Assembly: GCA_011319805.1 (NCBI GenBank)
Contig: SJRY01000252.1
Span: forward strand, 1 to 64,000
Source of the DNA: Macrocybe gigantea
Taxonomy: Eukaryota > Basidiomycota > Agaricomycetes > Agaricales > Callistosporiaceae
Direction: 5' to 3'
Length of the DNA stretch: 64,000 nucleotides
The notes below the pieces were generated by a model. That model was not told the origin of the DNA. It searched no databases and saw nothing but the letters and a program-made list of their open reading frames with translations. How positions within the stretch are numbered: position 1 is the stretch's first letter; each line of letters begins with the position of its first letter. A program made the position numbers and the translations under genes. Shown in pieces: positions 7,851 through 46,235 of the stretch.

Positions 7851-7947
7851 GAGGATCAGGCCTGAAGCTGGGGTAAGCCACCTCTCCCGCAAGGGGGGGC
7901 TAAACTTCATGTCAGCAAAACGATAAGCGATGACTCCAAGCTGATTG
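7851..7947 (+). mobile_element. SINE 3'-end remnant fused to LINE RNase H sequence
   Basis: Positions 7881-7909 carry CCTCTCCCGCAAGGGGGGG followed by CTAAACTTC, the same end found in the tRNA-headed elements at 9853-9880 and 20998-21025. Directly after it, 7910-7947 matches LINE ORF2 in the RNase H region (compare 15447-15484). The piece then stops at an LTR-A end. It is a fragment of a third independent SINE/LINE fusion. Confidence 0.7.
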
Positions 7948-7973
7948 TGAGATTTGTCTAGCCTAACAAGATA
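7948..7973 (+). repeat. Terminal 26 bp of LTR-A (5' LTR remnant of gypsy-1)
   Basis: The sequence GAGATTTGTCTAGCCTAACA equals the last bases of LTR-A at 284-303. It directly precedes the leader of the gypsy-1 element, so it is most simply the surviving end of that element's 5' LTR; the rest has been lost at the junction with the SINE/LINE piece. Confidence 0.6.
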
Positions 7974-8099
7974 TTAAGCCTTGTTGAGACTCGCTCAGAC
8001 TCACACACATACCACGTCATACTTTATCAAAGACTTGATCAATATTTGATGACAAGTGGTCACCGACCCAGCAAGCACCAGCACAAATGATGAGAGCAC

Positions 8100-8501
8100 T
8101 GTTAAAACTAGGCACAGGGAACACTCTGGATGAGCCTTAGAACCTAGAAGTCCTGAGTGAGAACACTGGTAATTGAGTTATGTACAAGTACTTGCCTGAA
8201 GTCCTGAGTGAGAACACTGGGGACTTCAAGGCGCTCTGTGCTACCTATATATATGTGTAGAAGGCTGTGTGTGCAGCCATAGGCTGTGCATTGCTGCGGG
8301 CACAGCTGTAGGCTGTGCACTACTGCGGACACAGCCATTTACTGCGCATTACTGCATGCACAGCTTGTGCTGTGTATTGCTGTGGATGCAGCTACAGGCT
8401 GCGCATTGCTGCGCATACAGCTATAGGCTGTGTGCATTGCTAGGCACATAGCCTGGGTCCTGTCCTATGCACAAGTCCGGACAGAAGGGGCATTTCTAAC
8501 A
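8100..8501 (-). repeat. Solo copia LTR with an internal tandem expansion
   Basis: This LTR starts TGTTAAAACTAGG and ends ...ATTTCTAACA, with the perfect 5-bp TSD AGCAC at 8095-8099 and 8502-8506. It is the reverse orientation of the copia 5' LTR at 38603-38842. It is 402 bp long, against 240-259 bp for the other two copies. The extra length lies at about 8270-8440, where a unit of about 29 bp (GGCTGTGCATTGCTGCG...) is repeated about five times. Confidence 0.9.
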
Positions 8502-8690
8502 AGCACTTGGCTCAGAGAAGTAGACCAGATATTGCAATCCACGCCATTCACAGAGACAGTCCATGCCACCTGCAGAGACACTAGCAACCCAAACAAATGA
8601 AAGAGAGAGCACATGCCTATACCAAGTAGCGAAGAACAGGCATTTCTGAGAGAGTTTGCCTTCACCACCACAGACAAGCCTGGGGCTGGT

Positions 8691-8761
8691 TGGCATAGCG
8701 GTAAACGCGAGTCAGGTAGTCCTGTGGCTGTGGCAAGCCACGAAGCCGCGGGTTCTAGTCC
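8691..8761 (+). promoter_or_regulatory. Internal Pol III promoter (A box and B box) of SINE chimera 1
   Basis: TGGCATAGCGG at 8691-8701 fits the A-box consensus, and GGTTCTAGTCC at 8751-8761 fits the B box. The B box sits in a T-arm-like hairpin. The 50-nt spacing suits a tRNA with a long variable arm. Both boxes are conserved in the second copy (20087-20097 and 20146-20156). Confidence 0.8.
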
Positions 8762-9881
8762 TGGAGGTAGCATCTTCAGGTTTGCATTCGGAAGTGTCCG
8801 GAGCTGGTTCCACGTGACGCAGGCAGGAAGTATCATGACCCTGTGACAGTTGTTCCCACGAGGGAGGTGACTTGGTCATGTGACTAAGCAGCTGGCACAT
8901 GATGTAAGCTGGGTTATGCGTCACACATGTGACTTACCCCACTATGTGGGTCAAGTGTCACATGACCCTAACTCACGTGCAAGCACGTGATCCCCAATCT
9001 AAAAGTGTAGGGCCAAAAGGATAAGGGATTATACCGGAAATTGGGCTGATAACCACCCGATGGCGTTTGAGCCAACAGGGCACCCGGTACCGTGTGAGCT
9101 GCCTGAAGTAGGGGTCCATGGAGGTTAGTCATGGCGCAGTACGCTTTGGCGGAAGTAGATCCAGACCCATTCAGCTAAGGGCTTCTCCTGTGGGAACCTG
9201 TCATGGGAGGACCATGGACCTTGCTGTGATATCGGAGGCCAGTCTGGCAGGCACATGGCAAGACAGAGACCTTGGACAGATGGGGATCCGCGCCCTAAGG
9301 GGCATCAGTGAACCATCTGCCAGAGGACGGGAAGGCAGGACTGGGGGTCACGCCCCAGACACCGCTGGGCCGTAGCAAGGCTGGACAGTCTCCAGTCCTT
9401 GGCTCGAGAGACCTAACTCCTCTGTCGGTGGCCCTGGGATAATACACCCAGGTTGCCGCTTAAGTTGAATCCGAAGTGCGAACTCCTGGGTTCCGTGGGA
9501 CTCTGGGGACCCCAGTGTGTAGGTGAAAGTCCATGCCGACCTACTTGGCAGGCTTAAACGGTTCCCCTTGGCATGGATGGCCTTGGGGTGCAAGTGTCGG
9601 ACAAAAAGCCTTAATCCGGCAGACCGCAGCTGAGTAAGACGGTACCATCCCTGAGTCCACACCCAATTTGGGGAGGCCTCGGCCGTTGGCAAGGGGGGGT
9701 CTGCAGACCAAATAGGGAGGGCATAAGCCCGACGGATGCACACTGGACCCACATAAGGAGTCCTAGGTTAAGGGTTCCCCTGGGCGTGGATGGCCCTGGG
9801 GTGAAAGTGCTGGACAATAGCCTTAATCTGGCAGACCCACCTAGGTAGCAGCCTCCCCTGCAAGGGGGGGGCTAAACTTCG

Positions 9882-10614
9882 TATTGGGTTGCGAATGGCA
9901 ATCCAAAAGGCTATCGCACAAGATGGAGTTAATTCTGTCGTGTGCTTTTTAGATTCAATGAATGCAATTAATCGCATCATCGATTGCAACCCCCACTCTG
10001 TGCAGTCGCACTCTATTGCACTTTGTGCATCACTGGAAGCTTGGCTCTCTGAGTCCAAGCAGCGCCGGATTGAATTCTGGCACGTCCCTTCCAAATGGAA
10101 GTGGGCAATACAAGTCGAGGCTCACGAGTTTGCCCGGAGCCTGGATGTTCCCCTGGGACTTCGTCCCCTCTATACCACCAATGGCCTTCGAAAGGAGGCT
10201 GACGATGATATGCATAGCACTTGGTTCCAGAATTCTGGGAACAAGAAATACATTGGTGCTTCCACATTTCATTTTCACAAAGCAGGAAAGCCAAATTCCT
10301 ATGAACGCCCCTCTCGGAAGAGAATGGGCTTCATGAAGTTAGTGACAGACAACGAGCTTTATGCTCGCTGTTCACGTCTCGCATGCGGCCATGCTCCGAT
10401 CAATGCGTATCAGGCACAGTTTAATTTTGTCGATAGCGATTTATGTTCTTGCGGACGAGGGGTTGAAGACTCCGTCCACGTCATGACTCAGTGCCGTAAC
10501 TGGCACAGGCCAACTGAATGCCAGTTTGACGCCTTTGTGCGTCACTGGTTCATTAAGTATCTCACATCTAATAAAGCTGCAGGTGCTTTCATTCCGGATC
10601 CAGGCGGCAGGTGA
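9882..10614 (+). pseudogene. LINE ORF2 tail carried in SINE chimera 1
   Basis: About 240 open codons run from the RNase H domain (GLRMAIQKAIAQDG, FLDSMNAINR) through the Cys-His motif CSCGRGVEDSVH to the normal ORF2 stop TGA at 10612-10614. There are no internal stops and CpGs are kept, so this part is young. It cannot be expressed as a LINE protein because it lacks a start, the endonuclease and the RT. The 3' UTR follows to 10988. Confidence 0.9.
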
Positions 10615-11394
10615 CTGCCGTTCTGTAGCGGAGATCGTCTGGGGTAACCCGGACAATCTGGAAACAGTCGGGTCAGTGACCAAAGCACTGACCAAGCATT
10701 ATGCGAACTGCAAACTCTGCAACAGTATCGTTATAGGTCCTCTTGGACCTTTTATGTGGAATTGACCACAACCGGCCCTCTGGGGCTGGGGGACGGTGCT
10801 CGAGCGAGTGAGTACGCGCGAGCTCGAGCCATATGGTTCGAGCGCGGGCACGAGAGAACAGGGCAGTGTAGCCCTCCATGTAGCTCCCTTCAGTCTGTTT
10901 TATCTCGGACTAGTCGTATTTATCGTAGATACCTGGGTGTATTTACAAGCAGACTGCCACCGTGCACCGCTATATAAATTGTTGAATTAAAAAAAAAAAA
11001 AAAAAAAAAAACCACAGACAAGCCTGCTGAGATCCTCAGCAAAGGAGCAGCACAACTCATTGCAGAACTTTTCCTAGAAGGAGAATACAGGATAAGCCCA
11101 GAAGAGCTGTGGTCAGACCAGAATCTTCTTGCCGAAGAAGAAGATGAACATATCTGCAAGAAAATGAGAGAAGAATGAACACAAGCCTGAGACTTCAGGT
11201 AACAACAGATTGAGAACTACAATTACTGAACACAGGAGGAAGACATACTGATACAGAGAGGGCATGACGCACAGAGCATATGACAGAACCAATGAGAATG
11301 ACACCAAAGTCAAGGATACATAGGAATGAAACCACCGAACCCCTTCAGAGGACCAATCTGCCGAAGCACTGCATAAGGAGAGAATTGCACCACC

Positions 11395-12537
11395 ATGGCG
11401 AAAGTAAGCAACAGTGACTGGGACAAATACTATCGGTGGAGGGAGCGAAAAGGATTATCAAAGACAAACGGACTGACCATTGCAGAGCGGGCCGATTTCG
11501 AACAAGCTTGTAGAATTGCAGGAGTCGATCTAGACTACTGGAAAGAATAGAGAGAGGAGTAAAGACAGAAACAACTTCAAGAATCGCAAGCCCAAGTACA
11601 AGCACAGCAGACCCAAGAACAACAGATCCAGGAACAGGAAAACCAAGACCAAGATAACGATGAAGAAACTCCTCAAAGAATGACGACAGAATACAAGGGA
11701 ATCATCGCCAACCTGAAATCCTTCACAGAAGATCGAACATCCTTCGACATTTGGTGGAGGAAGATGAAGCTTTATATAACTACACATGGAGACCTCATGG
11801 ATACACAGAAGATCGGAGTGGTCCTGTCTAGAATGACCAATGGACCAGGAGCCCACTGGGCATCAAAGAAGATTGACACCACTACCAACCAAAGCACATG
11901 AGCTGACTTTATAACCGAGATAGAGACATGATTCAGCAACGTCATGTCACCATCACAAGCAGGAAGCAAACTATTCAATATCAGATAGGAAAACTGACCC
12001 ATTGACAAATTTCTGGATGAATTCGTAGACCTTGCAGGAAAAGCAGGAATGACAGGAACAGCCCCTCATTTCCTACTCGAGAAGAGCTTAAACCAAAGGA
12101 CAGCAGAAGCCATACACTCAATCTCCACACTTCCAATAGATGAAGATGAATATATCAAAACAGTTCGAGTAATTGGACAAAACATTGATGAACATAGGAA
12201 TGTGATGAGAGGAGAATTCACAAGCAATCAGTGCAAGCCTGGAAATCCAAGCCGAGGAGCAAGACAGGCCATGGAAGTCAACAAAGTATGAAGCAACAAC
12301 TGCTTCAATTGCAATAAACCAGGGCACCTCTCACAAAACTGCCTGGAACCACAAAAGGGAGCAGCAAATGTCACATGTTTCAATTGTGGCTTAAAGGAAC
12401 ACTATGCACGAAACTGCAAGAAGAAGAAGAAAGGAAAATTCTGAGTCAGAGAAGTGAAAGAAGAAGAAGGAGAGGATGAAGAAGACAAGGACGAGGAAAG
12501 CTCTGACAAAGAGGATTTTGTCGAAAGGTCTGACTAG
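11395..12537 (+). pseudogene. gypsy-1 gag (nucleocapsid with two zinc knuckles)
   Basis: A Met at 11395 opens a frame of about 380 codons (frame 1) ending at TAG 12535-12537, with several internal stops (for example near 11548, 11899 and 12289). A glutamine-rich segment (about 11570-11660) is followed by a retrotransposon capsid-like region and two CCHC knuckles, CFNCNKPGHLSQNC (about 12301-12342) and CFNCGLKEHYARNC (about 12379-12420), then an acidic tail. Gag packages element RNA in cytoplasmic particles in this family. The stops make it non-functional. Confidence 0.82.
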
Positions 12538-12559: not shown

Positions 12560-15104
12560 ACAACTGAAACAGACTTGCTTTGATACTGGATGTAGATCAT
12601 CCCATACTCTGAAATATACCATTCTCACCAAGCGATCTGAAGCACCAAGGAAAACCATCCCAGGGGACAAACCACCAAAGAGGAAAGAACTCGCAGTACC
12701 AGCTAGGATACAAATGCAAAAAAGAATAACAATGATAATACTGGAAGTTGATAGCGGAGCAGATAGGACCTGCATCAACACTGCAATAGTAGTGGAAACA
12801 GGGCTGAAGACATGACAAATCAAGAAGATTCCAATTATAAATGCAGATGGATCACCCAACTGCCAGAAAACAGCAGACTGAGTAGCGGAGGTCCACATTG
12901 ACATTAAAGGATACAAGGAGCATATGGAAGCCATCGTACTCAATATCGGAAAGACTGACATGCTACTAGGATATGACTGGCTTGTCTACTACAATCTAAT
13001 CATCAAATGGAGGACAGGAGAAGTTGTCTTCGACAGATGCCCTAAAACATGTAAAATAAACCACCAGATGATTAAGATACAGAAGATGGCTGAACCAGTG
13101 AAAACCACAGCCAGCGACAAGACAGGAACCCAGATACCTCCATACCTGATCAGATTCAAACACCTCTTCAAGGAGAAGAACTTTGATCATTTACCAGACT
13201 ACAAAGAATGGGACCATGAAATAAACTTAATGAAAGATGCATCCAAAACGATACCGAGTAAGGTCTATCCAATGATGCAGAAGGAACTAGAGGAACTAGA
13301 TGCCTTTGTCAAAGAAGAATTAAGAACAGGAAAAATACGCCCATCGAAATCACCTTATGCAGCACCCTGCTTCTTTCACAACAAGAAGGACAGAAGCAAA
13401 CAACTCATCCAAGACTACCAGGAAATAAACAAATATATGGTCAAGGACAAGTTCCCACTACCATGCATTAGCGAGCTCCTCGACGTACTACAAGGAGCAA
13501 AGTACTTTAGCAAGATCAATATTATCTGGGGATACAATAATATATGCATCTGGAAAGGAGACGAATGGAAAGCAGCCTTCCTAACAGCAAGAGGACTCTT
13601 CGAACCGACAGTTATATACTTTGGGTAGTGCAATGCACCAGGCACTTTTAGCTGAATGATGGCAAGCCTCTTCCAAAACCAAATATGAAGAAGAGTGTGC
13701 ATAATCTATATGGACAACATCATAATCATCAGACAAATATGAGAGGAACTCTAAAAGAATACTATAGAAGTCATGGAGATACTAAACAAAAATGACCTAT
13801 TCATCAAAGGACCAAAATGCATCTGGGAATCATCAAAAGTCCCAGTGCTAGGATACATTATAGGAGAAGGAAAAGTAGAGATGGAATCAGAGAAGATCGC
13901 AGCTGTACAATTCTGGCTGACCCCAAAAATGAAGAAAGAACTACAAAAGTTCTTGAGATTCATAAACTTTTACCAATGATTCATCAAGGGATATGCAAAG
14001 GTTGCTGAACCTCTGACAGAGCTAACTGGAAACATAACATTCCAGTGAACAGACAAGCAACAAGATGCTTTCAAAGAGCTAATTCGACACATAACCTCAG
14101 CACCCATTCTAGCACTACCACAAACAGAAGGAAAATTCTGAGTCAAAACAGACACCTCAGGATATGCCATCAGAGCAGTACTATTATAAAATAGCAGGAA
14201 GGACTATGGCACCTGATCGCCTTTATTTTGAGATGCATGACCCCAGCAGAGCAAAACTATGAAATCTATGACAAGGAACTTCTTGCGATAATGGTTGCAC
14301 TAAAGACATGGAGACAATACCTCCTTGAAGCTTGAGAGAAGTTCGAGATATTGATAGATCACAAAAACCTATCATATTTCTGGAAACCACAGCAATTCAA
14401 TTCGAGACAGATCAGCTGGTACCTGAAATTACAGGAATATGACTACGAACTACGACACGTACCAGGAAAGGCGAATGGAAAAGCGGATGTCCTGTCACGA
14501 ATGGCAGGATATGAAGAAAACCTAGCAGAGAAGGATGACATACAAATGATCAAAGAAGCAGCATTCATTCGACATCTGGAAGAGAATAATGAATGAGACT
14601 TCGAATTTATGATGTTCGAGGATGAACACCCACAAAAAGAAGAAGCAGAAAATAATAAAGCAATACAAACAAGAGGAATCACAATGATCGAATCCTCAAG
14701 GATAGAACAAATTCGACAATGCACACAAAGGGAGATGATCGTAATAATAGGACTGAAGGAAAAACCACACTGGTTCACAGAAGAAGACCACATTGTATAT
14801 GTAGGAGGAAAAATCTACATTCCTCCAGATAACAAACTGAAGGAAGACATTATGTTTGAACACCATGACACATCCATCGGAGGACACCTAGGATAATACC
14901 ACATGCATGAGCTCATAAACTGCACCTATTGGTAGCCATCAATGTTAACGGATATCAAGAAGTATATTAATAGATGTGAAACATGTCAGTGAAACAAAAT
15001 CATCCAACAAAAGAAACATGCACCCCTACACCCACACGAGGTCCCACAACAACTATGGGAAGATATTGGAGTAGATCTCATAGGACTGCTACCCAGCTCG
15101 AGCA
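12560..15104 (+). pseudogene. gypsy-1 pol: protease, RT, RNase H, start of integrase
   Basis: The frame begins as frame 0, with a protease motif containing DSGADRTCIN (about 12750-12780) and an LLGYDWL flap-like segment. The RT runs from about 13190; its active site reads YMDN (13707-13718) where the family has YMDD, so even a repaired frame would lack the second catalytic Asp. RNase H is marked by [11 protein letters not shown] and IDHKNLSYF in a different frame (frame 2). The integrase zinc region (HHDTSIGGHLG, then CETCQ) follows, and the sequence ends early in the integrase core at 15104. Many TGA/TAG stops and at least one frameshift are present. Confidence 0.85.
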
Positions 15105-16633
15105 AGCGTACTGCACTCAAATCCCCTCTCAAGGATTTGGTGGACCTTAAACCATCTAACTTTTTATTCATACTATTTCACAGATGCGAATAATCCAGGC
15201 AGGCAGCTCATTGACCAGTTCAGCAGCCGCCTTGAAATCTATAAGCTTCTTGGCAAAGATGAAGACTCTGTCAAGGCTTATCATGCATTGCTCAAACAGG
15301 CACTTGCTGAATGCCAGCTTGAGCCCAACTGCATATATACCAGTAGTGATGGCACCGTGCCCATGAAAGCAGATACACTCAGACAATCAGTGTATTCGTC
15401 CTGGGTCTACTGAGGCAATACACTTGTCTTCGAAACTCATCAGCCTGTCAGTAAAGTGACAAGCGATGACTCCGAGCTGATTGGATTGTGTATGTCAATC
15501 CAGAAGGCTATCACACAGGATGGAGCTACATCCATCATGTGCTTCCTCGACTCGATGAATGCAATCAATTGCATCATCGATTGCAACCCTCACTCTGTGC
15601 AGTCACATTCTATTGCACTGTGCACCTCACTGCATGCTTGGCTTACCCAATCCGAGCTGCACAGGATTACATTCTGGCACATCCCCTCCTCTTGGAAGTG
15701 GGCTATTCAAGTCGAAGTGCATGAGTCTGCGTGTGGCCTCGACATATCTCAGGGACTCTGTCCCTTGTTTACCATGGATGCACTCTGGATGGAGGCAGAT
15801 GATGACATGCATGCCTCCTGGTTCCATGACACTGGAGTCAAGAAATATATTGGCACCTCCACGTTTCAGTTCCACGATGCTGGAAAGCCTGATTCCTATG
15901 AGTGCCCGCTTCGTAAAAGAATGGGTTTCATAAAGTTGGTAACAGGCAATGAGCTGTTTGCTTGCTGCTGTCGCATTGCATGCGGACATGCGCTGATCAA
16001 TGCATATTGAGCACGGTTCAATTTTGTTGAGAGTGATGAATGCTCTTGTGGATGTGGGCCTGAGGACTCCATCCATGTTATGACTCTGTGCCATAACTGG
16101 GACAGACCAACCGAACGCCAGTATAATGCCTTTGTACGCTCCTGGTTTGTTAAGTACCTAACATCTAATAAGGCAGCGGGTGCTTTTATCCCGGATCTGG
16201 AGGGTGGGTAACTGCCTCTTTGCAGCGAGGGATGCTCAGAGTTATAGCTCCTCACGGGGCCTTTGCGCAGAAGCAACTGCAGCTGGCCTTTGGACTGGGG
16301 GACCCAGAGCATCAATTCAACATGGTGTTTGATGAAAGCAAACACCAAGCTTCATTGCATATTGCAGTCTCTGTGACACCTGTCATTATGGGCCCTTTTG
16401 GACTCTTTATGTGGAACTGACCACATCCGGCTCCTAGGAGTTGGGGGACGCAGGCTGAACAGGCAAGTCAGTGCGGGCATAGGCATGAGAGAACAGGGTT
16501 AATGCGCCCTCCATGTCCATCTCCTCAGTCTGGGCTTCTTCAGACTAGTTGTATTTATCATAGGTACCTGTGTGTATTTACAAGCGGACTGCCATCGAGC
16601 ACCACTATACAAATTGTTGATTTAAAAAAAAAA
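15105..16633 (+). mobile_element. 5'-truncated LINE copy J
   Basis: It starts in the ORF2 linker between RT and RNase H, just upstream of the ALKSPLKDLVDLK block, and ends with the usual LINE 3' terminus and a short poly(A) at 16624-16633. ORF2 sequence runs to TAA 16209-16211 with stops at about 15410 and 16007. CpG loss is intermediate: many TpG and CpA where copy A has CpG. No TSD was found and gypsy-1 does not resume on the right, so the insertion was probably accompanied or followed by a deletion. Confidence 0.85.
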
Positions 16634-17130
16634 TGAGATGATACAGTTACTTTATGCTCATCTCTTTCAGATCACCAGCTCCAGATACAAAGCATGAGGA
16701 ATTGTTGTGCATATATAGGATCATGCAGCAGTCAATCAATGGTTTTAAAGATTACATGGGCAAACTGATGGCACAGCTGCATCAACTGGTGGACTTGGCA
16801 GACAAGGTAATCATCTGCACATATATCCAAACTGGCACTAACTGCATGCTCTGTCAGATAAAGAACTCAGCAAGCCAGGCTCACAGTGAAGATATGTCAA
16901 GCCTCAAAGACATGTTTGTCGATCTTATCACCAGGAATATTCCAGATCAGCAAATAGACCCCCCATTCTCGTGGGTGACAGTAAGGAGGTGTTAGATTGT
17001 ATGTATTCAGGCACATTATTGTCTCCACTAATATCAAAGATACCAAAGAACCTAGACCAAATAGTGTCTCAGGGTGAAGGTATATAGGATGAGGTGGTTG
17101 TAAATACAACTTTGAAGTTAATCTATCAGG
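16634..17130 (+). other. Unidentified sequence with a 113-codon open frame
   Basis: The frame at 16654-16995 encodes a protein with a stretch like DYMGKLMAQLHQLVDLADK, loosely reminiscent of retrotransposon gag capsid helices, but no zinc knuckle or other diagnostic motif follows. It could be a fragment of an LTR-element gag. I would not name it further. Confidence 0.3.
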
Positions 17131-17205
17131 CATGATAGCTCAGTGGTAGAGCTACTGGTATATGTTCAGAAGGTTCTGGATTCAATTCCCAGTCAGATCA
17201 TCTTT
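17131..17205 (+). other. tRNA-derived sequence (decayed tRNA or SINE head)
   Basis: TAGCTCAGTGGTAGAGC at about 17136-17152 is a near-perfect A box with a paired D-stem (GCTC/GAGC). GGATTCAATTCCC at about 17177-17189 is a B box. The T-stem keeps four of five pairs and the acceptor arms pair only partly. It looks like a decayed tRNA or the head of an unknown SINE; no poly(A) boundary was seen downstream. Confidence 0.45.
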
Positions 17206-17977: not shown

Positions 17978-17991
17978 GGCTCATCCCTCAG

Positions 17992-18797
17992 GGCCCCAGT
18001 AGCCCAGTGGTTATCATCACTACCAAAGACTGGAGAGGTAGCTATGCACCACTGGAAGGATTGGGGTTTAATTTCCCTCATTCTCAGTACCCAAAAAGCT
18101 GGAAAAGGCATGTGACCTGTCAGAGGTTATCATCACATGCTTGGTTTACATGAGTCAGGTGATGCTGACACCATGGGAAAGATTGGTTGCATTAATCACC
18201 TGGCCTGGGTGCAGTGCCTGAATTGATAACTCAGGGCCCAGTTTCAAGGAGTCATGTGACATTTACACAATAGCACATGATCTAGGTGGGAGTGATTGAT
18301 CATACCCTAAAGTGGCACACTAGATCTTAAGTCTGGTATCCCATGCCTAAAATGGTCATGTGATATCATGTGATCAAGTAGGGAGCGAAAGCATAGGGGG
18401 TGGTAAGTGGGGTAGAATTTATACAGAACAAGCCAAATGTTTGAGTGATTCCAGGTCAGGCCATTCCCCACTACAGACAAGTAGGGATCCACATTGATGA
18501 TAAAAGTGAACCACTTGCTCTGGAATGGGAAATGGTAGTAAGCAGGGCTCTCTGTGAACTCCTTGCTGAAGAGTGAGCCATGGCAGGCTGGGACAGTCTC
18601 CTGCAACCTGGCTAGAGTGGTGCTAACAAACTCCTCTATTGGTTCATGGACTAATGAGGTCCATTGGGTCTGAGTTGATTCCAGGATGTACTGTAATAGT
18701 GGGCTCTTCCTCACAAGAGTGGGTGAAGTACAGGGCTCTGCTATATGCAAGGCCCTGAATCTTGAAAATTGCTAATTTTAGAAAAAAAAAAAAAAAA
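17992..18797 (+). mobile_element. SINE-2 copy a (tRNA-headed, about 0.8 kb)
   Basis: The A box TAGCCCAGTGG is at 18000-18010 and a decayed B box (GGTTTAATTTCC) at about 18065-18076. The body matches the minus-strand copy at 45722-53536. It ends CCCTGAATCTTG followed by a short LINE-like terminus and a poly(A) ending at 18797. The TSD is GGCTCATCCCTCAG (17978-17991) against GGCTTGTCCCTTGG (18798-18811), differing only as CA against TG at two former CpGs. No coding sequence is evident. Confidence 0.85.
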
Positions 18798-18821: not shown

Positions 18822-19080
18822 TGTTAAAACTAGGCACAGAGAACACTCTGGACGAGCCTTAGAACCTAGAAGTCCTGAGTGAGAACACTAGTAATTGAGT
18901 TATGTACAAGTACTTGCCTAGAAGTCCTGAGTGAGAACACTGAGGACTTTAAGGTGCTCTATGCTACTTATATATATATGTAGAAGGCTGTGTGTGCAGC
19001 CATAGGCTATATGCATTGCTAGGTGCATAGCCTGGGTCCTGTCCTATGCACAAGTCCGGATAGGAGGAGCATTTCTAACA
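18822..19080 (-). repeat. Solo copia LTR
   Basis: A 259-bp LTR starts TGTTAAAACTAGG and ends ATTTCTAACA, flanked by the perfect TSD CTTTT at 18817-18821 and 19081-19085. It is the reverse orientation of the copia 5' LTR at 38603-38842 and has only one copy of the unit that is expanded at 8270-8440. Confidence 0.9.
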
Positions 19081-20061: not shown

Positions 20062-20077
20062 AACTGGCAATGTCACA

Positions 20078-21449
20078 AGGGCTGGTTGGTATAGCGGTAA
20101 ATGCAGTCAGGTAGTCCTGTGGATGTGGCAATCCATGAAGCTGCAGGTTCTAGTCCTGGAGGTGGCATCTTCAGGTTTGCATTCGGAAGTGTCCGGAGCT
20201 AGTTCCACGTGATGCAAGCAGGAAGTATCATGATCCTGTGACAGTTGTTCCCATGAGGGAGGTGACTTGGTCATATAACTAAGCAACTGGCATGTAATGT
20301 AAGCTGGGTTATGCATCACACATGTGACTTACTCCACTATGTGGGTCAAGTGTCACATGACCCTAACTCAAGTGACCTGGTTTCCCTTGGTGTGGATAGC
20401 CTTGGGATGTAAGTGCTGGACAATGCCTTAATCCAGCAGACCATATGTGATCCCCGATCTTAAAAGGTAGGGGCTGAAAGGATAAGGGACCATACCGGGA
20501 ATTAGGCTGATAACTACCTGATAGCGTTTGAGCCAACAGGGTACCCGGTAAAGTGGGAGCCATTGGCAATGATCATGAACTGGTTAGTCACCTGCAGTAC
20601 GTCACCTGCTTAAGTTGGTGGAAGCAGATCCAGACCTGTTCAGTAAGGGCTTCCCCTGTGGGAACCTGTCATGGGAGAACCATGGATCTTGCTGTGATAT
20701 CGGATGCCAGTCTGGGAGGCATGTGGCAAGACAGAGACCTTGGACAGATGGGGATCCGTGCATGTAATGCATCTGCGAACCATCTGTTGAGGGACAGAAA
20801 GGCAGGCACGGAGTAGCGACCCAGATACCGCTGGGCCATAGCAAGGCTGGACAGTCTCTAGTCCTTGGCTTGAGAGACCTAACTCCTCTGTCGGTGGTCC
20901 CTGGATAATACATCCAGGTAACTGCTTAAGTTGAAGCTGGAGTGCGAAACTCCTGGGCTAAACAGTCTGATCATAAGACTGAGCCCTGGTTAGCAGCCTC
21001 CCCCACAAGAGGGGGCTAAACTTCGTTGGGTTATGGCTCCTTACAGGGCCTTTGCATGGAAATAACTGCAGCCAGCCTGCAGGCTGGGGGACCTAGAACA
21101 TCAAGTCAGCATGGTGTTTGATGAAAGCAGACACCAAGCTTCATTGTGATTTGCAAGCCCCATGATGCCTGTTCATTATGGGCCCTTTTGGACCCTTTAT
21201 GTAGAATTGACCATATCTGGCTCCTAGGAGCTGGAGGATGCAGGTCTAGCAAGCAAGTCAGCATGAGCATGTGCCTAAGTGGCATGCACACAGGCAGGAG
21301 ACAGCAGGATTAGTGCGCCCTCTATGTATATCCTCTCAGTCTGGTTTTGGTTGGACTAGTTGTATTTATTGTAGGTACCTTTGTGTATTTACAAGCGGAC
21401 TGCTACCAAGCACTGCTTTATAAATTGTTGAATTAAAAAAAAAAAAAAA
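20078..21449 (+). mobile_element. tRNA-headed SINE fused to a 0.4-kb LINE 3' UTR (chimera 2)
   Basis: The TSD AACTGGCAATGT(C/T)AC lies at 20062-20076 and 21450-21464. The tRNA-like head has its A box at 20087-20097 and B box at 20146-20156. The body matches chimera 1, and the SINE end GGGGGCTAAACTTCG reaches about 21025. LINE sequence then begins at the GGGTTATGGCTCC point of the 3' UTR and runs to the poly(A). The LINE part is therefore about 0.7 kb shorter than in chimera 1, although the SINE end is identical. CpG decay is advanced. Confidence 0.9.
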
Positions 21450-21464
21450 AACTGGCAATGTTAC

Positions 21465-26971: not shown

Positions 26972-27998
26972 GTGCCTGTCCTTTAAGAAGCACATCCACT
27001 TTTATATAATAAAGGCACTGACAACAGCCAGAGCCTTCCAAATGCTGGACAATTCTGTTTGGGGCTTATCCCTCCAACAGAAGCACATTTTCTACCTGTT
27101 GTGTGTGCATCCCATTATGATATATGGCTGTTTACTTTGGAACTTCAGCGGTATGTGCACTGTCACACTGATAAAGCAACTGTGCCAGATGTAGCATAAA
27201 GCCTGCATCTGGATCAATGGTCAGTTTCACACCACTCTGGAGGGTGTGGCTGAAATGATAGCCTATGTCAAGCCTATTACTGGATTCATCAAACATTTAA
27301 AAGTCAGGTCCTCTGTCCATCTGGCTAACTCTAACCTGAGACATGTGCTCAGGTCACTAACCACCCCACCTGTGGCAGGGGAGGATCCTTCCAGGTTAAA
27401 GAATCTGACCTTTCTCTCAGACAGATAGTGTGCCTTACTGAAATCCCCTCTCAAGGACTTGGTGGATCTTAAACCACCAAACTTTCTATCCACAGATTAT
27501 TTTGCTGATGCAAATAACCTGGGCAGGCAGCTCATTGATGAATTTGGGGACCACCTTTTTTTTTTTTTTTTTTTTTTTTTTTATATCAACAATTTATAGA
27601 GCAGTGCTCAGTGGCAGTCCATTTGTAAATACACAATGGTACCTACAATAAATACACGAAGTTTAGGGCCCTCCAAGTAGAGGACCCTTATCACTATTTC
27701 CTTTGCAGGATAGGTGCTAGACTAAATGGTGGAATTCTGTGTCTAGACCCCGGAATCAACTTGGATTCAAAGCCTGGATTAGTCATCCAGGTGAACCGGC
27801 AGAGGATGAGTCCTCTCAGGCCAGAGTCAGGGGACTGCCCTAGTCCACCACAGTTCAAATTTCGGCCAGGGAGCAAGTTACCAAGAGGCCAAGCTGACAG
27901 CAAGCTGGGTATTGGTAAGCCCCACCTACTTTACTTTTCCCATTCCTGAGCATGTGGTTCACTGATGCCCAGAGGGTGCAGATCCCCAATTATGTTCC

Positions 27999-29346: not shown

Positions 29347-30501
29347 ATGGAATTCGTTGCCACTCTCTTCGCCTTCATCACTATAATCCTTACCACCCTC
29401 TTCGCCGCAAACCCACTTGCCTTAGCTTGGGGCACTCTCCGAAACAACCCTCAACAAGCCGAACAGGTTCAGAATGCGACACGGACTTTGGTCGATGCGA
29501 TCAAAGAAGAATTAGATTTGGGCAAGAAGCCCAAGAGAACGAAATCGGAACTGCCGGATCCATACAAAGGAGATCCTGGCCTGATCGGAAGCTGGCTTCG
29601 ACATATGGAAGTCTACTTCGACAAGGAGGAGATCACCAATAAATGGGATATGATCACCTATGCACTACAATGGATCATGGGAGGCAAGGCTGAACGTGCA
29701 CAGAACTGGGTGGACTCAAAGCTACAAGAGTGGCTAGAGTTCAAAACGGAATTGAATGGACGCAGGCAGGAGTTCAGAAACCACTCCACCTATGATGATT
29801 GGGAACACGGCTGCATCGTTACACCGGCAACGGCTAATACTCCGGAAGTCAGGACGGACCCCCTTGGACACCTCCCACCATTCAAGGATTGGGAGAACTT
29901 CAAGGCAGAAGCCCGCGAGTTCTTCATGACTATGGAGACTAGGAACGATGTGATAATCCGGATTAAGGAACTGTCGCAACGCTGACGACCGGTCGAGGAC
30001 TACATCGTTGAATTCCGGAGCTGGGCTCCCTTGACGGAATACAACGACATCGCCCTCATCAACATTTTTAAACATGGACTCGACCAGGTGCTCGGATGAT
30101 GCATCATTGAACTAGGAGGTGTCCGCGAGGAGGACATCAACTGGTGGTACAAGCGCGCAACGGAACTGGACCGGCAATATCGCCAGACCCAAAAGGAATT
30201 CGGTGCGAAGGAGCGATTCGCTCCCAAGCAAACACAGAAACCAGCACAGGGAACCGCGGCACCTAAGGAGCAAACTCCGGCACTAGCAACCGGTAATGCT
30301 CAAGGAACGCCTGACCCGAATGCCATAGATGTCGACCGGATGAGGCGCGAAGGCCGCTGCTTCCGGTGCGGACAGAAAGGACATATCGGATGTAATTGCC
30401 CGATGAACCCCCGGCTGAAATATGTTACAAGGAACGTAGAAACGCAGGACGAGACTACTGTCGCTACCGCTAAGATCGAAGAGCTAAAACAGGGTTTTTG
30501 A
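29347..30501 (+). pseudogene. gypsy-2 gag
   Basis: The frame (frame 1, about 385 codons) starts at ATG 29347 after an upstream in-frame TGA (29293) and ends TGA-TAG at 30499-30504. Two internal TGAs (29983-29985 and about 30097) stand where CGA is expected. The N-terminus has a hydrophobic stretch. The middle, with LPDPYKGDPGLIGSWLRHME and a later MTMETRNDVI, matches fungal gypsy capsid proteins. The knuckle CFRCGQKGHIGCNC is at 30358-30399 (CX2CX4HX4C). Gag would form cytoplasmic particles with element RNA. The last codons contain a frameshift heptamer. Confidence 0.88.
30492..30498 (+). promoter_or_regulatory. Candidate -1 ribosomal frameshift heptamer GGGTTTT (gag to pol)
   Basis: In the gag frame the codons read CAG GGT TTT TGA TAG, so the heptamer is phased G-GGT-TTT, the X-XXY-YYZ pattern used for -1 frameshifting. 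It abuts the gag stop. Slipping back one base continues as TTG ATA GAG into the pol frame, which is open from here. No downstream pseudoknot was worked out. Confidence 0.7.
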
Positions 30502-33500
30502 TAGAGCTGGGAAGAAGCACCGCTTCGCCGGCTGATTATGTATCATCGAATATGAATATAAGGGACATTCCCAACCTTAAAGAATATTTCGAACGAGAAG
30601 GTGCACGAGAGTTCGGTCTCATAAAAGGATACACTCTACCCTGGGTGGCTCAACAGATTTATCGGCAGGACAAGTCTAAAGTGTACTCGATCCTTAAGGC
30701 ATGGACAGATCAATCGTGACAGAAGGACATCTCATTGGAAAAGCTTCATGAGATCAATCAGATGAACGACCACGATGCACTCCACATGCTACTCGACCTC
30801 AGACAAAAACCACGATTTGTCAGAGGCGGCAATGGAAATCAAATGGATGTACCTTTAATGATCACAACTTTGGATACTGGACGGATATACAGTATGAAAG
30901 CCTTGCTTGACACGGGATGTACCGGATCTTGCATAGATCAGAAGTTCATTAAGGAAAAGAAGATCAATACAAAAAGATATCCAATTCCTATTCCGGTCCA
31001 CAATGCAGACGGAACCCGTAACATGGCAGGTGATATATGTGAATATGTGGAATTAAGAGTCCGGGTCCAGGACCACGTCGAGCGAATGGTCTTTTCGGTT
31101 ACTGAACTTGGAAAGGGCCAGATCTTCATCGGTTACGAGTGGGTTAAGCATCACAACCCTCGGATCGATTGGAAGACAGAGAAGATCACTTTTGATCGAT
31201 GCCCCGAAGAGTGTCAGCGAATTGTCCAAAAAGGAAACCCCGAAGATGACGACACCTCTATTGAGACAAATGAGGTAGACTTTGAAAACGGAGAAAAACT
31301 CTTGATGATCAACATGAACCAAGAGTTTCATCTGAGGGCTTTCCAAACAATGGCTTCCAAATTGGCCGAAGCAATGGTGAAAGTGACAAAGGCTAAAACC
31401 TTTGAAGAAATCGTACTGGAAGAATACCACTGTTTCAAGGATTCAGTGTTCGGAAAAGAGTCGTTCGATGAACTACCACCTCAACGACCTTAGGACCATG
31501 CAATCGAACTTATCCCAGGAGCTAAACTCTAGGATTGCAAGGTCTATCCCCTGACGCTAGATGAACAGAAACAGTTGGACGCCTTCTTAGATGAAAATCT
31601 GAACACCGGATGAATCAGACCATCGAAGTCGCCAATGGCCTCGCCTTTCTTCTTCGTAAAAAAGAAGGACAGATCCCTATGGCCCGTACAGGACTATTGG
31701 AAGTTAAACGACATGATGATAAAGAACAAGTACCTGCTCCCCCTGATCCAAGAATTGATCGACAAACTCAAGGGAGTGAAGTACTTCATGAAACTTGACA
31801 TCTGATGGGGATATAATAACATCCGCATGAAAGAAGGTGACGAATGGAAAGCTGCATTTCGGACAAACTGGGGAATGTTCGAACCCCTGGTCATATTCTT
31901 CGGACTGACAAACTCACCGGCTACTTTCCAAACTATGATGAATATGATCTTTAAAGACAAAATCGATCAGGGACACGTAGTAATCTACATGGATGACATT
32001 CTCATCTTCAATAAGGATTTGAATGAACACAGACGACTCGTCCAATGCGTGTTGGAAAAGCTAAAGAATAACAAGCTTTACCTGAAACCTGAGAAATGCT
32101 CGTTTCATCAATTGGAAGTAGAGTATCTTGGAATGATCGTCTCGGAAAACGGCATTAAGATGGATCCCGTTAAGGTCGAAGGTGTCAAAGGATGGCCGAA
32201 ACCCACTTGCAAAAGAGACGTCCAGCAATTTCTAGGCTTTTGCAACTTCTACCGGCGTTTCATCGAGGGATTCGCAAAAATCGTGAAACCTTTGATGGAA
32301 CTGACCAGAAAAGCCAACTGGACATGGGGAAAAACCCAAGACGATACATTCGACGGATTAAAAAACCGGATTAGCTCAGCGCCAATCATTTCTATGCCCC
32401 GAGATGACAGAAAGTTCTGAATGGAAGTTGATGCCTCGAACTATGCAATCGGAGGCGTCCTTTCACAGGAACAATCCAATGGTACTTGGAGACCGGTAGC
32501 TTTCATGTCAAAGTCATTAAACCCGACGGAACGAAACTACGAGATCTACGACAAAGAGATGCTCGCGATTATGACCGGACTTGAGGAATGGCACCAATAC
32601 CTCTGCAGCACTAAACAGAAATTTGAGATTTGGACAGATCATAAAAATCTCAAATATTTCCGGAAGCCTCAGAAGCTGAATCGCCGGCAAGCTCGCTGGA
32701 TCTCGGAACTACAGGACTATGATTTCATTCTGGAGCACAAACCCGGGAAGTCAATGACAAAGGCAGACAGTCTGTTGAGACGACCAGACCATGAGAAGGG
32801 GGAGAACGATAATGAAAATGCCGTACTCCTAAAGCCAGAGAATTTTCGCCGGATTTTCATGGCGAAGATCACACCGACACCGGAATTTCAGGACATTCTA
32901 GACCAAATCAAAAGGGCTTGGAAACAAAGAGAGCCTGAGATCCAGAAACGTCTTGACGAAGGCGAACACGGCTGGGAGGAAAATGACCAAATCGTTACAT
33001 GGCTGAAACGGTACTACGTTCCCAAGAGCCAAAAGATAAGGGAACGGATCATTGAAATCTACCATTCAGATCAGATCTCGGGACACCCAGGACAGACAAA
33101 GACGCATGAGTTAATCACGTGCAACTTCTGGTGGCCCAAAATGATGAATGACGTCAAAGCGTATGTCAAAGGATGTGACAAATGCCAACGGACAAAGATC
33201 ATCAGAGATCGGAAACATGCCCCACTCCATCCGAATGAGATACCGAAAGAACCATGGGAGATCATATCTGTAGATCTCATCGGACCCCTCCCCGAATCTC
33301 ATGGATTCAACGGCGTAATGGTGACGGTAGACTGGTTCACAAAAGGAGCCAAGTTCATACCAGTCAACATGGAGATTATGGCAGAAGGAGTCGCTCGCAA
33401 TCTACACGACACCATATTCTTGAGTTATGGACTTCCAAAGAAAGTCATTAGCGATAGAGGAAGACAATTCGTCTCCGTGTTCATGATGGACCTCTACACG

Positions 33501-34619
33501 CTTTTAGGAATTAAAGGAGCCCCCTCGACGCCGTATCATCTACAGACCGATGGACAGACAGAACGAGTTAATCAGGAATTAGAACAATACCTGAAACTCT
33601 TCGTAAACTATCGGCAAAATGACTGGGTGGATTGGCTACCTATGGCCGAATTCTCCTACAACAATCGAATTCACTCGGCGACTGGATACTCCCCATTTTA
33701 TTTGAACCACAGGTGACATCTGTATACTGGAAAAGAACCTCCGAAGCACAATGCTAAGTCGCAAACTACTGAAGAGTTCACCGAGATGATGAAGGAAATC
33801 CGGACCAAGGCCGAAACCTCCTTATTGAAAGCTGCAGAGACAATGAAACGGACCTATGACCGCAAACAGAAACCTGCCCGAGAGTACCATGAGGGCGACC
33901 AGGTCTGGCTGGAAGGAACAAACATTACAACTGACCAGCCGACTGATAAGTTAAACGACAAACGGTTTGGTCCTTTCAAAGTCAAACGGCGAATCGAAGA
34001 ATCGGCGTACGAACTCGAACTACCAGAACACTGGCGAATTCATCCTGTCCGAAACAAGTCTGAACTGACCCCATACACGGCACTGGTGTTTCCGTGACAA
34101 AAAACGGTAATGATTCTCAAACGGCCTCCTCCCATTATTGTGGAAGGAGAGAAACAGTACGAAGTAGAGGCTGTGATAAATTCTCGATGGAACCGAGGAA
34201 AGTTACAGTACAGAATACATTGAAAGGGATACCCTCTCGAGAACGCCACCTGGGAACCCGCTGAAAATGTTAACGGAGATGCGCCGGATGCGGTCGCGAA
34301 ATTTCATCACGAGAACCCCAAGGCGCCATCCCTAGAAAGAGGACAACGTCAGCTGCCACCCCGACCCGCACCAAAAAAGGTAATACGCACCCGCCTCCAT
34401 CAAACCCAGTCGCCAAAGGTCTTGTTCGACCACACAGCTGATGAAGTCTGGGTCTGCCTACGAGGTCAACAAATGAAAATGCTCCCGAGGAAGAGGACCC
34501 TTACCGGCTGGATGTCGGATCTGAGCGAGGTCGAAGATCGCCTGGACGTGGCTTGGCAGGCATGGCAACAACGTCGGAACAAAGAAATCATAGGCGAGGA
34601 CGAGCGCCAAAAGAACTAG
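30498..34619 (+). pseudogene. gypsy-2 pol with C-terminal chromodomain
   Basis: One frame (frame 0, about 1370 codons) runs through the whole region, broken by seven TGA and two TAG stops but no frameshift. In order: protease with LLDTGCTGSCID (Asp at 30909); RT from about 31590 with YMDD at 31986-31997, intact; RNase H with EVDASNYAIGG (32424) and WTDHKNLKYF; integrase zinc region (HSDQISGHPGQ...CDKCQ, 33064-33189); integrase core with Asp in SVDLIGPL, Asp in ISDRGRQF and Glu in ERVNQELE; then a chromodomain at 34155-34271 (QYEVEAVINSRW ... KGYPLENATWEPAENV), which in related elements directs integration to heterochromatin. Most TGAs replace CGA Arg codons; the stop inside the chromodomain (34221) replaces its conserved Trp. 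Confidence 0.92.
34155..34271 (+). other. Chromodomain coding segment of gypsy-2
   Basis: The pattern YEVEAV-x-SRW-x-RG-x-LQY...KGY-x-x-x-x-ATWEPAENV is diagnostic of chromodomains at the integrase end of Ty3/gypsy chromodomain elements. The aromatic-cage Trp of ATWEP is kept. The Trp expected before KGY is the stop TGA at 34221-34223. A basic tail of about 115 residues follows to 34619. Confidence 0.88.
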
Positions 34620-35091: not shown

Positions 35092-36734
35092 GTTCCAAGT
35101 GTCTGCCTTGCTAGCATCCAGCCCCAGTGTGCACCCCTAGACCTAAGGCCTAGGCTGGGGAGTTCTATACCCATGCTTAACCCGGTTATGTATGCCCCAT
35201 AAGGAGGTCTCAGGCTCCTACCTGAGCAGTGCTTTATGATTATGTGGTGGCTACCCCTGGGCCTGGGGACTCCCCAAGTATGCCCAAGGACCGGTCCACA
35301 CTACCAACACTGACTAATGACCAGGTTCCCAGCCTAATCCAGTTGGTTAGACTGGGCATGAGATTAACCAGTGAGGGGTGTCCTGTCCTAAGCTCGCAGT
35401 CTGAAGAGACTCCCTATTACAGAGTGTGCGGCACCTTCTGGAAGCGCGCATGCTCTGGACTGCCCCATTACAGGGTGTGTATTATAGGTCGGGTGGTTCT
35501 CAAGTTCTTCCCCTGCTTACCACGCCCTGTGCTTTCGCTCCCTACTTGATCACATGATTAATCATGTGACCATTTCAGGCACAGCCTATCAGAGGTCACC
35601 TGACCTGCTACTTTGGGCTTCCATGATCATCCCTATCATGTGACCAGGTTACCACCCTAGTTATGGAAGGTCACATGACCATGGTACTGCCTCAGAGTTG
35701 ATTACCAACCTGAGTTACCGAGCACATGACTGTAACCGATGATGGGTCACATGCCTATCCCTACTTAAAGGTATAGGGGATGAGTAAGAATCAAACCCAC
35801 AACCTTTCCAGTGGCTGCACAGCCACCTCTCCAGTCTTTAGTGGTGATTAAACCACTGGGCTACTGGGGCCCCTTGGGGACCGCCTTGAGATCCATAAGC
35901 TCCTTGGCAAGGATGAAGACTCTGTCAAGGCTTACTGTGCATCCCTTGAGCAGGCACTCATTGAATGCTGGCTTGAGCCACACTGTATTTATGCCAGTAA
36001 TGATGGCACCATGCCTATGAAAGCAAATGCACTCAATAAACAGTTAGTGTATTCTTCCTGGATCTACTGGGGCACTAGACTCATTTAGAAAATTCGTCAG
36101 CCTATTAGGAAAGCGACCAGCAATGAGTCTGAGCTTATTGAACTATGTATATCGATCCAAAAGGCTATTGCACAAGATGGAGTTACATCTGTTGTGTGCT
36201 TTCTTAACTCGATAAATGTGATAAACTGCATTGTTGATTGTAACCCCTACTCTGCACAGTCACATTCTATTGCTCTGTGCATTTTTTTTTTTTTTTTTTT
36301 TAATTCAACAATTTATAAAGTGGTGCTTGGTGGCAGTCCACTTGTAAATACATGAAGGTACCTACAATAAATACAACTAGTCCAACCAAAATCAGACTGA
36401 GGGGATATACATAGAGGGCACACTAACCCTGCTGTCTCCTGCCTGTGTGCATGCCACTTAGATGCATGCTTGTGCTAACTCGCTTGCTAGAACTGCATCC
36501 CCCAGCTCCTAGGAGCTAGATGTGGTCAATTCCATATAAAGGGTCCAAATGGGCCATAACGAACAGGCATCACAGAGCTTGTGCATCGCAATGAAGCTTG
36601 GTGTCCGCTTTCATCAAATGCCATACTGACTTGATGCTCTAGGTCTCCCAGTCCGAAGGCTGGCTGTGGTTACTTCCACACAAAGGCCCCACAAGGAGCC
36701 ATAACCCAGAGCATTCCCCGCTACAAAGGGGCAG

Positions 36735-44356: not shown

Positions 44357-44766
44357 CTGCCGTTCTGTAGCGGAGATCGTCCGGGGTGACCTAGGCAATC
44401 TTAAAACAGTCGGACCAGCGACCCAAGCGCTGATCGAGCACTATGCGAAACGCAAACTTCGCGACAGTATCCGTTATAGATCCTCTTGGACCTTTTACGT
44501 GGAACTGACCACATCCGGCCCTTTGGGGCTGGGGGACGGTGCTCGAGCGAGTGAGTACGCGTGAGCTCGAGTTATATGGTTCGAGCGCGGGCACGAGAGA
44601 GCAGGGCAGTGCAGCCCTCTATGTATTTTCCTTCAGTCTGGTTTGGATCGGACTCGTCGTATCTATAGTAGGTACCTGTGTGTATTTACAAGCGGACTGC
44701 CATCGTGCACCGCTATATAAATTGTTGATTTAAAAAAAAAAAAAAAAAAAAAAGCCTTTGTTACTG

Positions 44767-45706
44767 AAGAGATCCAAAGGACTAGAAGATCTGCTGATGC
44801 TGCAGAGTCTGCCTTAAAGGCCACCACCACTTCTTCCCATTCCTCCAATTCATCTAAACAGAAGAACTCCAACTCCAATACATCACAGAAAAAGGACAAA
44901 ACATGCAGATTCTGTGGTCTGGATCACTTCTGGAGGAATTGCCAACTTTACAAGGAGGCTCAAAAGGTGGCTAGGCAAAAGACTAAAGGGCAGGAGCAAG
45001 CCAACAAGGCTACAGAGTCCGAAGTAACCGAATTTGCAGGCAATGCAAGTGCCAAACTCTCTCATCTACTCCAACTGGATGCTGACTTTGATTGGATCAC
45101 AGACACAGGGGCCACTTCTCATATGACCCCTCATAAACACTGGGTTAGAAACTATACCCCTCTCAAGATTCCAATCAAGTTGGCAGATAGTTCTATTATT
45201 TATTCAGCTGGAGTGGGGACTGTGATTTTCAATCCAGTCATTAGAGGCAAACCAGCCCAATCTGTAGAGTTTACCAGGGTTTTGCATGTGCCAGAACTCC
45301 GAAACAATCTATTGTCCTGTCTATATCTCTCCAAACACAAAGCCTTCAGGATTGTCATTGATGATTCCTGCATAGACTTTCATTCCAAATCGCTCAACAG
45401 GATACTGTTCTCTGCTCATATCACTCCCAACAACACTGCTCAGTTGGAATTTCAGAGTTTGCAAACCTTGCTAGCACACTTCCTTTGGACCTTAGCTTAT
45501 GGCATAGGAGATTGGCTCATTTCAGTTATGACACTGTCAAACTAATGGCCAAGGATAACTTGGTAACTGGATTGGATCTCAAAACCTTGGACAAGCCAGA
45601 CCCCATCTGTGAACCATGTCTTGCAGGCAAAATGTCTTCAAACCCATTCCCCTCCTCAGATAGTCATGCTTCTCAACCCCTAGAACTCGTCCATTCTGAC
45701 CTTTAT
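44767..45706 (+). pseudogene. copia gag end, protease and integrase zinc region
   Basis: This continues gag after LINE L2: a Ser/Lys-rich segment, then the zinc knuckle CRFCGLDHFWRNC (about 44908-44946). The protease motif WITDTGATSHMT (about 45095-45130) and the conserved LHVPELRNNLLS follow. A one-base frameshift near 45480 moves the reading into LDLSLWHRRLAHFSYD, the GAG-pre-integrase zinc region (H, H, then CEPCLAGK). LVHSDLYGPLSV supplies the first catalytic Asp of integrase just before the SINE interrupts at 45707-45721. Confidence 0.88.
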
Positions 45707-46235
45707 GGCCCTCTTTCTGTTTTTTTTTTTTTTTTTTTTTAATTCACCAATTTACGAGATTCAGGGCCCTGCATATAGCAGAGCCCTGCGCTTCGCCCGC
45801 TCTTGCGAGGGGAGCCCACCATTACAGTGCATCCCGGAGTCTTTTTTTTTTTTTTTTTTAATTCAACAATTTATATAGCGGTGCATGGTGGCAGTCCGCT
45901 TGTAAATACACCAAGGTATCTATGATAAATACGACTAGTCCGAGAAAAAACCAGACTGAAGGGAGCTACATGGAGGGCTACACTGCCCTGTTCTCTCGTG
46001 CCCGAGCTCGAACCATATGGCTCGAGCTCACGCATATTCACTCGCTCGAGCACCATCCCCCAGCCCCAGGGGGCCGGTTGTGGTCAATTCCACGTAAAAG
46101 GTCCAAGAGGACCTATAACGGATACTGTTGCGGAGTTTGCAGTTCGCATAACGCTTGGTCAGTGCTTTGGTCACTGACCCGACTGTTTCCAGATTGTCCG
46201 GGTTACCCTGGACGATCTCCGCTACAGAACGGCAG

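Follow-up and report, generated by a model that had tools for sequence, protein, structure and literature searches.

The described system closest to the one reported here is that of the MINE elements of Magnaporthe (Gogvadze et al. 2007, PMC2104539), in which a non-coding 5' part of about 1.1-1.2 kb, WEIRD, is present at full length and is joined to a 5'-truncated LINE 3' part at varied sites, some of them used twice. In the available portion of that account WEIRD has no solo copies, is fused to a SINE as well, lies in units with target-site duplications (TSDs), and is termed not a transposable element and without relatives. Its junctions with MGL and Mg-SINE carry GCC*A/U; by our own count of Table 3 in the same paper, G occupies position -3 in 17 of 18 rows and a pyrimidine position -1 in all of them, and four pairs of rows share a site (PMC2104539). 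In mammals, U6/L1 and related chimeras likewise carry an acceptor RNA on the 5' side and a truncated LINE on the 3' side, in the same orientation and with TSDs, according to the portion of the text available to us (PMC13174262). Template switching has furthermore been proposed as the origin of new SINEs in birds, in the excerpt at hand (PMC5729268).

We analysed a 64,000-nt stretch of a basidiomycete genome (the window; C251:1-64000) together with genome-wide matches drawn from the 41.2 Mb assembly, to whose contigs the C-numbers refer. Three repeat families, termed SINE-1, SINE-2 and SINE-3, were distinguished, which the first-pass annotation of the window had pooled as one group. SINE-1 is a non-coding repeat of 0.9-1.2 kb with a fixed 3' end and a LINE fragment behind it. 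The features of the three families and of the partner LINE are as follows.

8683..9881, + strand: SINE-1 form A, full length, ending in CTAAACTTCG; 3' border as in genomic copies
8691..8701, + strand: A-box match TGGCATAGCGG in form A, pattern TRGYNNARNNG
8751..8761, + strand: B-box match GGTTCTAGTCC in form A, 10 of 11 positions of GGTTCGANTCC
9850..9881, + strand: 3' module of form A, hairpin and single-stranded tail by folding; stability no greater than that of composition-matched shuffles (z -1.57)
9882..10988, + strand: LINE 3' part behind form A, from LINE position 4980 to the 3' end; poly(A) to about 11010
8667..8682, + strand: left TSD of the form A unit, ACCACAGACAAGCCTG, 16 nt
11011..11026, + strand: right TSD of the form A unit, 16 nt, pairing with 8667..8682
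20079..21025, + strand: SINE-1 form B, full length, 947 nt
21026..21434, + strand: LINE 3' part behind form B, about 410 nt, from a diverged LINE subfamily
20062..20076, + strand: left TSD of the form B unit; right copy at 21450-21464, one mismatch
7870..7909, + strand: 5'-truncated SINE-1 3' remnant, about 40 nt, followed by about 38 nt resembling the LINE RNase H region; weak
27657..27995, - strand: SINE-3 3' part, ending in GGAGGGCCCTAAACTTCG, a family distinct from SINE-1
27583..27656, - strand: fixed LINE tail of SINE-3 (LINE about 6015 to the end), with the same junction in 47/49 fetched copies
35101..35873, - strand: SINE-3 5' part, with the tRNA-like head common to SINE-2; borders by eye
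17991..18764, + strand: SINE-2 copy a, ending in CTGAATCTTG, then a short LINE-like tail; A box at 18000; borders by eye
45755..45841, - strand: SINE-2 copy b, 3' part, ending in CTGAATCTCG, then TAAATTGGTGAATT and poly(A); upper border by eye
45842..51947, - strand: copy of the partner LINE that supplies the reference coordinates, 6088 nt excluding poly(A)

SINE-2 ends in GGGCCCTGAATCTCG or a variant of it. SINE-2 and SINE-3 have a tRNA-like head in common (by eye), and SINE-3 and SINE-1 share short stretches of their bodies (E 4e-7 and 1e-6). The reference LINE carries what we take to be ORF1 zinc knuckles, an endonuclease, a reverse transcriptase (RT) and an RNase H region, and of 120 listed relatives of the RT those that bear a name belong to Agaricales fungi. 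SINE-1 units own 11 of the 40 best-scoring LINE 3' ends (best 40 of 393 candidates), and for this reason the SINE-1/LINE system is not marginal in this genome.

Several other elements were observed on the way. At 17129-17200 the window contains a tRNA-like sequence above the Rfam tRNA threshold, which precedes SINE-2 copy a by about 800 nt. Repeats resembling LTRs (TTAAAACTAGGCACAGGGAACACTCTGG...) lie close to the two SINE regions, at 8106-8520 and 18827-19080, and Gypsy- and Copia-type polyprotein-like open reading frames were recognised by eye at 12924-13628, 29347-33716 and 53414-54652. At 43779 of the window a LINE copy skips from LINE position 3879 to 5135, by internal deletion or by a LINE-LINE switch, and two LINE copies elsewhere (L024 and L153) carry an inverted LINE 5' end on their 5' side, like twin-priming inversions. 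An RPB2 fragment from the genome is 95% identical to that of a Marasmius sp., its best match bearing a name, and 97% identical to entries without one, in keeping with an Agaricales-like fungus. At C291:161697-163026 (L150) lies another RPB2-like sequence, interrupted by several stop codons, which looks like either a decayed copy or an intron-containing, diverged paralogue.

The first-pass annotation had claimed that one and the same SINE end is followed in the window by LINE sequence starting at widely different places. This was borne out for the two complete SINE-1 units. Behind 9881 the LINE follows from position 4980, and behind 21025 about 410 nt of LINE 3' end are found, taken from another LINE subfamily (127/154 identical to the LINE at 16241-16395). 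The single TSD and single poly(A) that it had noted for three of the fusions were also recovered around both, with 16 nt for the 9881 unit and 15 nt with one mismatch for the 21025 unit. The junction placed at 7910 is a weak case: about 40 nt of the SINE 3' end do remain there, but the LINE match is short (28/38, LINE 4947-4984) and stops there.

A genome-wide search with the SINE-1 body yielded 31 near-full copies, the query included (92-98% identity, 40 scored of 142 candidates). All 31 stop at query position 1195-1208, and the SINE border is thus fixed. Exceptions to the usual end are a body copy at C143:439482, which is without it, and the SINE-1 at C235:803267, which stops at CTAAAC with an altered tail. 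When the end itself was used as a pattern with at most one mismatch, 104 genomic places were matched versus 9 for the reversed pattern. Of these 104 matches 100 were read, for most of which about 35 nt of SINE were fetched and the family was judged on the last 30 nt or so; 97 are SINE-1 and three are chance matches without SINE sequence upstream. The 97 ends are followed by LINE in 84 cases, by 5'-truncated SINE-3 in 12 (one of these fusions duplicating another) and by the poly(T) of an opposite-strand LINE in one, and no solo SINE-1 was found among them. All 84 LINE pieces have the same orientation as SINE-1; they comprise 76 junctions mapped first, of which four rest on an alignment beginning 24-45 nt further on, five mapped later, and three that are weak or from another subfamily (7895 and C103:48762, short and weak; 21011, other LINE subfamily). 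Among 23 copies picked by their 3' end only, 18 have a complete SINE 5' end, starting from SINE position 1.

The positions at which these LINE pieces begin are widely scattered. In the 72 best-mapped junctions, aligned within 10 nt of the SINE end, 59 distinct positions were counted, from LINE 6 to 5996 of the 6.1 kb LINE, and no dominant SINE-1 junction was found among them: the largest class, at LINE 4439, holds 4/72 copies, two of which are a segmental duplication. With 59 positions among 72, SINE-1 has no 3' tail, LINE-derived or A-rich, that is conserved as part of the element. Few LINE parts are near full length, four junctions lying at LINE 7-24. The spread is not uniform (KS p = 1e-5; 29/70 in the 4-5 kb bin), 13 coincident pairs occur among 70 junctions versus an expected 0.4 under uniformity or 3.1 if only G(-3)Y(-1) sites are used, and part of the repeated use of positions is shared between dissimilar LINE subfamilies. 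The recurrence and the non-uniform spread point to hot spots or to some re-amplification, and for some SINE-1/LINE units the source may be re-amplification of an existing chimera and not a fresh joining. SINE-1A copies are 97-98% identical to the window copy, and the LINE pieces attached to them 86-98% identical to the reference LINE.

Three individual arrangements are worth recording. The SINE-1 end at C224:129272 (L046) is the one abutting the poly(T) of an opposite-strand LINE, and it has no LINE piece of its own. At C143:392675-392729 (L029) a SINE-1 end is followed by about 24 nt of LINE, a second 20-nt SINE-1 3' end and then LINE from 4926, probably a nested, strongly truncated SINE-1/LINE insertion. 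The SINE-1 copies at C224:121889, C224:186981 and C235:803267 share nearly the same junction (LINE 5995-5999), with a LINE tail of about 90 nt, and are possibly a nascent tailed SINE.

The sister families behave in the opposite way. The LINE junction of SINE-3 lies at 6014/6015 in 47 of 49 fetched places (of 50) and at 6034 in the other two, it being noted that some SINE-3 copies are duplicates of each other, and for SINE-2, among 10 places read, eight were real and all eight carry the same short LINE-like tail. SINE-2 and SINE-3 are conventional SINEs with inherited LINE-derived tails, and since each gives one junction, the method does detect a fixed junction where there is one. The junction at 27657, which the first-pass annotation had counted in the variable group, accordingly belongs to SINE-3 with its constant LINE position, and those at 18780 and 45741 to SINE-2 with its constant tail. 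The check set beforehand, by junction coordinates and enclosing TSDs, came out for switching in SINE-1 (59/72 positions, largest class 4/72, TSDs 16/30) and against it in SINE-3 and SINE-2 (one junction each), and these opposite outcomes indicate that the group as first drawn was mixed.

One TSD of 11-17 nt encloses the whole SINE-1/LINE unit in about half of the units that could be tested (16/30, one of which depends on an A-rich match), as compared to 1/870 when left and right flanks from different units were mismatched as a control. In the other 14 no TSD was found, and these units may be rearranged or nested.

On the donor side the junctions obey a sharp rule. At the 35 distinct well-aligned LINE sites, the third nucleotide before the junction (-3) is G in 31 (background 24%), A is never found at -2 and G never at -1. 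GCC and GCT are the commonest triplets, followed by GGC and GTC, and the motif can be summarised as G[C>T=G][C>T>A], abbreviated G-Y-Y below, with a +1 position that is not limited to A/U. The motif weakens when the set is widened to 55 sites that are less well aligned: 40 of them have G at -3, and one has G at -1. When SINE-3 is the donor, G is found at -3 in 9/11 cases, contexts being taken by eye from related copies. LINE 5' ends without SINE and with a TSD have G at -3 in 0/5 cases versus 31/35 (Fisher p = 2e-4), albeit in a small sample. The joins are mostly made without extra bases, the alignment beginning directly after CTTCG in 53/76.

Three candidate sources of this rule were rejected. 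Stopping of the RT at hairpins is not supported for this LINE, since local RNA structure did not differ between the 35 junctions and 250 other G-Y-Y sites of the reference LINE (p = 0.49; one LINE copy, 200-nt windows). Pairing of the donor GYY with the GGC of the SINE hairpin was discarded, neighbouring positions being without clear complementarity by eye. A nick by the LINE endonuclease was set aside as well: G is at -3 in only 6/18 hand-read insertion sites, a weak count, since TSDs with A as their first letter have no clear starting point.

On the acceptor side, SINE-1 ends as CCTCCCC-loop-GGGGGGG CTAAACTTCG, and the last 34 nt form a hairpin followed by 7-9 unpaired nucleotides in 94/95 SINE-1, 45/49 SINE-3 and 8/8 SINE-2 ends, a conservation that is partly selected, the patterns searched for having already specified some of the tail and of the stem's 3' strand. 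The stem sequences differ; apart from a few variants, the tail reads TAAACTTCG or TGAATCTCG. Compared with shuffled sequences the SINE-3 and SINE-2 hairpins are unusually stable (z -4.2, -3.2 and -2.5), whereas the SINE-1 hairpin does not exceed composition-matched shuffles in stability (z -1.57 for form A, -0.59 for form B). The tail varies by a change of the last G to A or of the preceding C to T. Such changes are expected of CpG decay, and the final G was therefore counted as SINE and not as LINE. As to the head, the first-pass description of the group as tRNA-promoted holds for SINE-1 insofar as internal A and B boxes are present as consensus matches, but a covariance search gave no match of the tRNA model to SINE-1. 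Known ribozymes and RNA families were likewise discarded, the four hits in SINE-1 (E 6.8-9.9) including neither a tRNA nor a ribozyme. TTTT is absent from SINE-1, about two being expected from its T content by our own estimate, which is not significant. We saw no source gene that has a natural 3' end.

In our view SINE-1 is very probably a Pol III-type, tail-less element whose RNA 3' end is defined at the hairpin, and which is joined to 5'-truncated LINE or SINE-3 RNA and inserted with it as one unit. A SINE-1 copy would be transcribed from a Pol III-type promoter, as its A and B boxes suggest, and the transcript of a genomic copy would read into the adjoining LINE piece. Because the SINE end is constant whatever LINE piece follows, we suppose that each round starts with the RNA 3' end being made again, most likely through processing at the hairpin module. 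Next, this tail-less RNA, usually full length, would be joined to RNA of a LINE or of SINE-3 whose 5' side had been cut off or abandoned at G-Y-Y, and the composite would be inserted as a single unit by target-primed reverse transcription with the LINE machinery. The LINE part would thereby serve as a disposable insertion ticket, its junction being made anew for most copies.

The joining step itself could take two forms. The RT, moving along the LINE RNA, may halt before G-Y-Y or come off a broken 5' end and resume on the 3' end of the SINE-1 RNA, a reading that we regard as having an even chance of being right. A template jump of this kind would account for a mostly full-length acceptor, a truncated donor in the same orientation and one TSD in 16/30 units, as is argued likewise for MINE in the available portion of that paper (PMC2104539), and for the near-full-length LINE junctions at positions 7 and 24. 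The R2 RT does switch templates in vitro, as stated in the accessible part of the report (PMC8857657), but it jumps best with an overhang of 1-2 nt complementary to the acceptor end (PMC8857657), whereas the present joins display no microhomology and have G at -1 in 0/35 although the acceptor ends in G. A strict G at -3, a template position left unread, would moreover be odd for pausing, and the junction sites have no extra local structure (p = 0.49).

Alternatively, the LINE or SINE-3 RNA may be cut after G-Y-Y and ligated, in the manner of a tRNA ligase, to the processed SINE-1 3' end, after which ordinary target-primed reverse transcription would copy the chimera. For U6/LINE-1 chimeras two mechanisms are named in the excerpt available, and RNA ligation is among them (PMC13174262). 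It would agree with joins that mostly lack extra bases (53/76 right after CTTCG), with a sharp rule on the cut side only, and with the missing G(-3) rule at the five solo LINE 5' ends with a TSD (0/5 vs 31/35, p = 2e-4), a control that is small (n=5). We know of no nuclease of G-Y-Y specificity, which counts against such RNA joining, and we hold it to be possible while leaning away from it. Cutting and ligation are favoured by joins that show no microhomology and by a motif that is sharp and confined to one side, and the jump is favoured by R2-type RT enzymology; the template switching named in the first-pass annotation is plausible as the enzymatic step, and RNA joining before reverse transcription also fits.

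An ordinary SINE with an inherited LINE tail, diversified by later deletions, is a true description of SINE-3 (47/49 at one junction) and SINE-2 (8/8) and a highly improbable one of SINE-1, for which the predicted dominant junction was not found and 59 positions are combined with one SINE border and outside TSDs in 16/30, when deletions would not respect a single border. Splicing of a transcript of SINE-1 and full-length LINE, from one donor site to many acceptors, would explain the fixed left and variable right border but can be given practically no credence, as AG is found at -2/-1 of the LINE border in 0/35 sites and in the near-full-length fusions CTTCG, the SINE end, is never followed by GT.

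We return to the tail-less SINE-1 joined to donor RNA and inserted as one unit. The SINE-1/LINE system is a MINE-type system in a basidiomycete, combining a full-length 5' part, a varied, truncated LINE 3' part directly joined to it, an enclosing TSD and a GCC*A/U-like site. It has in common with MINE the size and non-coding nature of the 5' part, varied sites some of which are used twice, the lack of solo copies, and fusions to a SINE. The likeness to MINE drawn in the first-pass annotation proved stronger than first stated, because the junction motif is nearly identical; this match with Magnaporthe is close and independent of this genome. To our knowledge, and from the open-licence literature, this is the second fungal lineage with MINE-type anatomy, and a search of that literature by titles and abstract openings gave no comparable fungal tail-less SINE apart from the MINE study. 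The two systems differ in the host, here a basidiomycete, in an acceptor that carries A and B boxes, and in the presence here of two sister families that have a similar 3' module and fixed LINE tails; the likeness described here is one of anatomy and motif. Unlike the U6/L1 chimeras, one acceptor dominates here (11 of the best 40 of 393 LINE 3' ends) and the donor follows the G-Y-Y rule. With conventional tRNA SINEs that carry LINE tails, such as SINE-2, SINE-3 and, from the part of the source available, PittSINE (PMC5729268), SINE-1 shares a Pol III-type head and mobilisation by a LINE; it differs in having no inherited LINE tail, the tail varying at most insertions. What is new here is the Pol III-type acceptor, the 3' hairpin module common to three families, the fixed-tail sisters and the sharper junction rule.

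SINE-2 and SINE-3, with a like 3' module, would have kept one inherited junction and become conventional tailed SINEs, and they look like descendants retaining one early junction near the LINE 3' end. Taken further, SINE-1 may be a true tail-less SINE with its own promoter in each copy and a 3' end regenerated at the hairpin, spreading only via new joins at G-Y-Y, under a rule common to an ascomycete and a basidiomycete, with tailed SINEs born from junctions kept near the LINE 3' end; this fuller reading we put forward tentatively, as just short of an even prospect.

Chimeras of LINEs with other RNAs have mostly been treated as by-products. A dominant acceptor, a junction rule and fixed-tail sisters within one genome make it testable whether the RT jumps or RNAs are joined beforehand, and the same setting makes testable whether tailed SINEs arise from such chimeras. 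The donor motifs of Magnaporthe and of this mushroom-type fungus are nearly identical, which points to a common enzymatic step.
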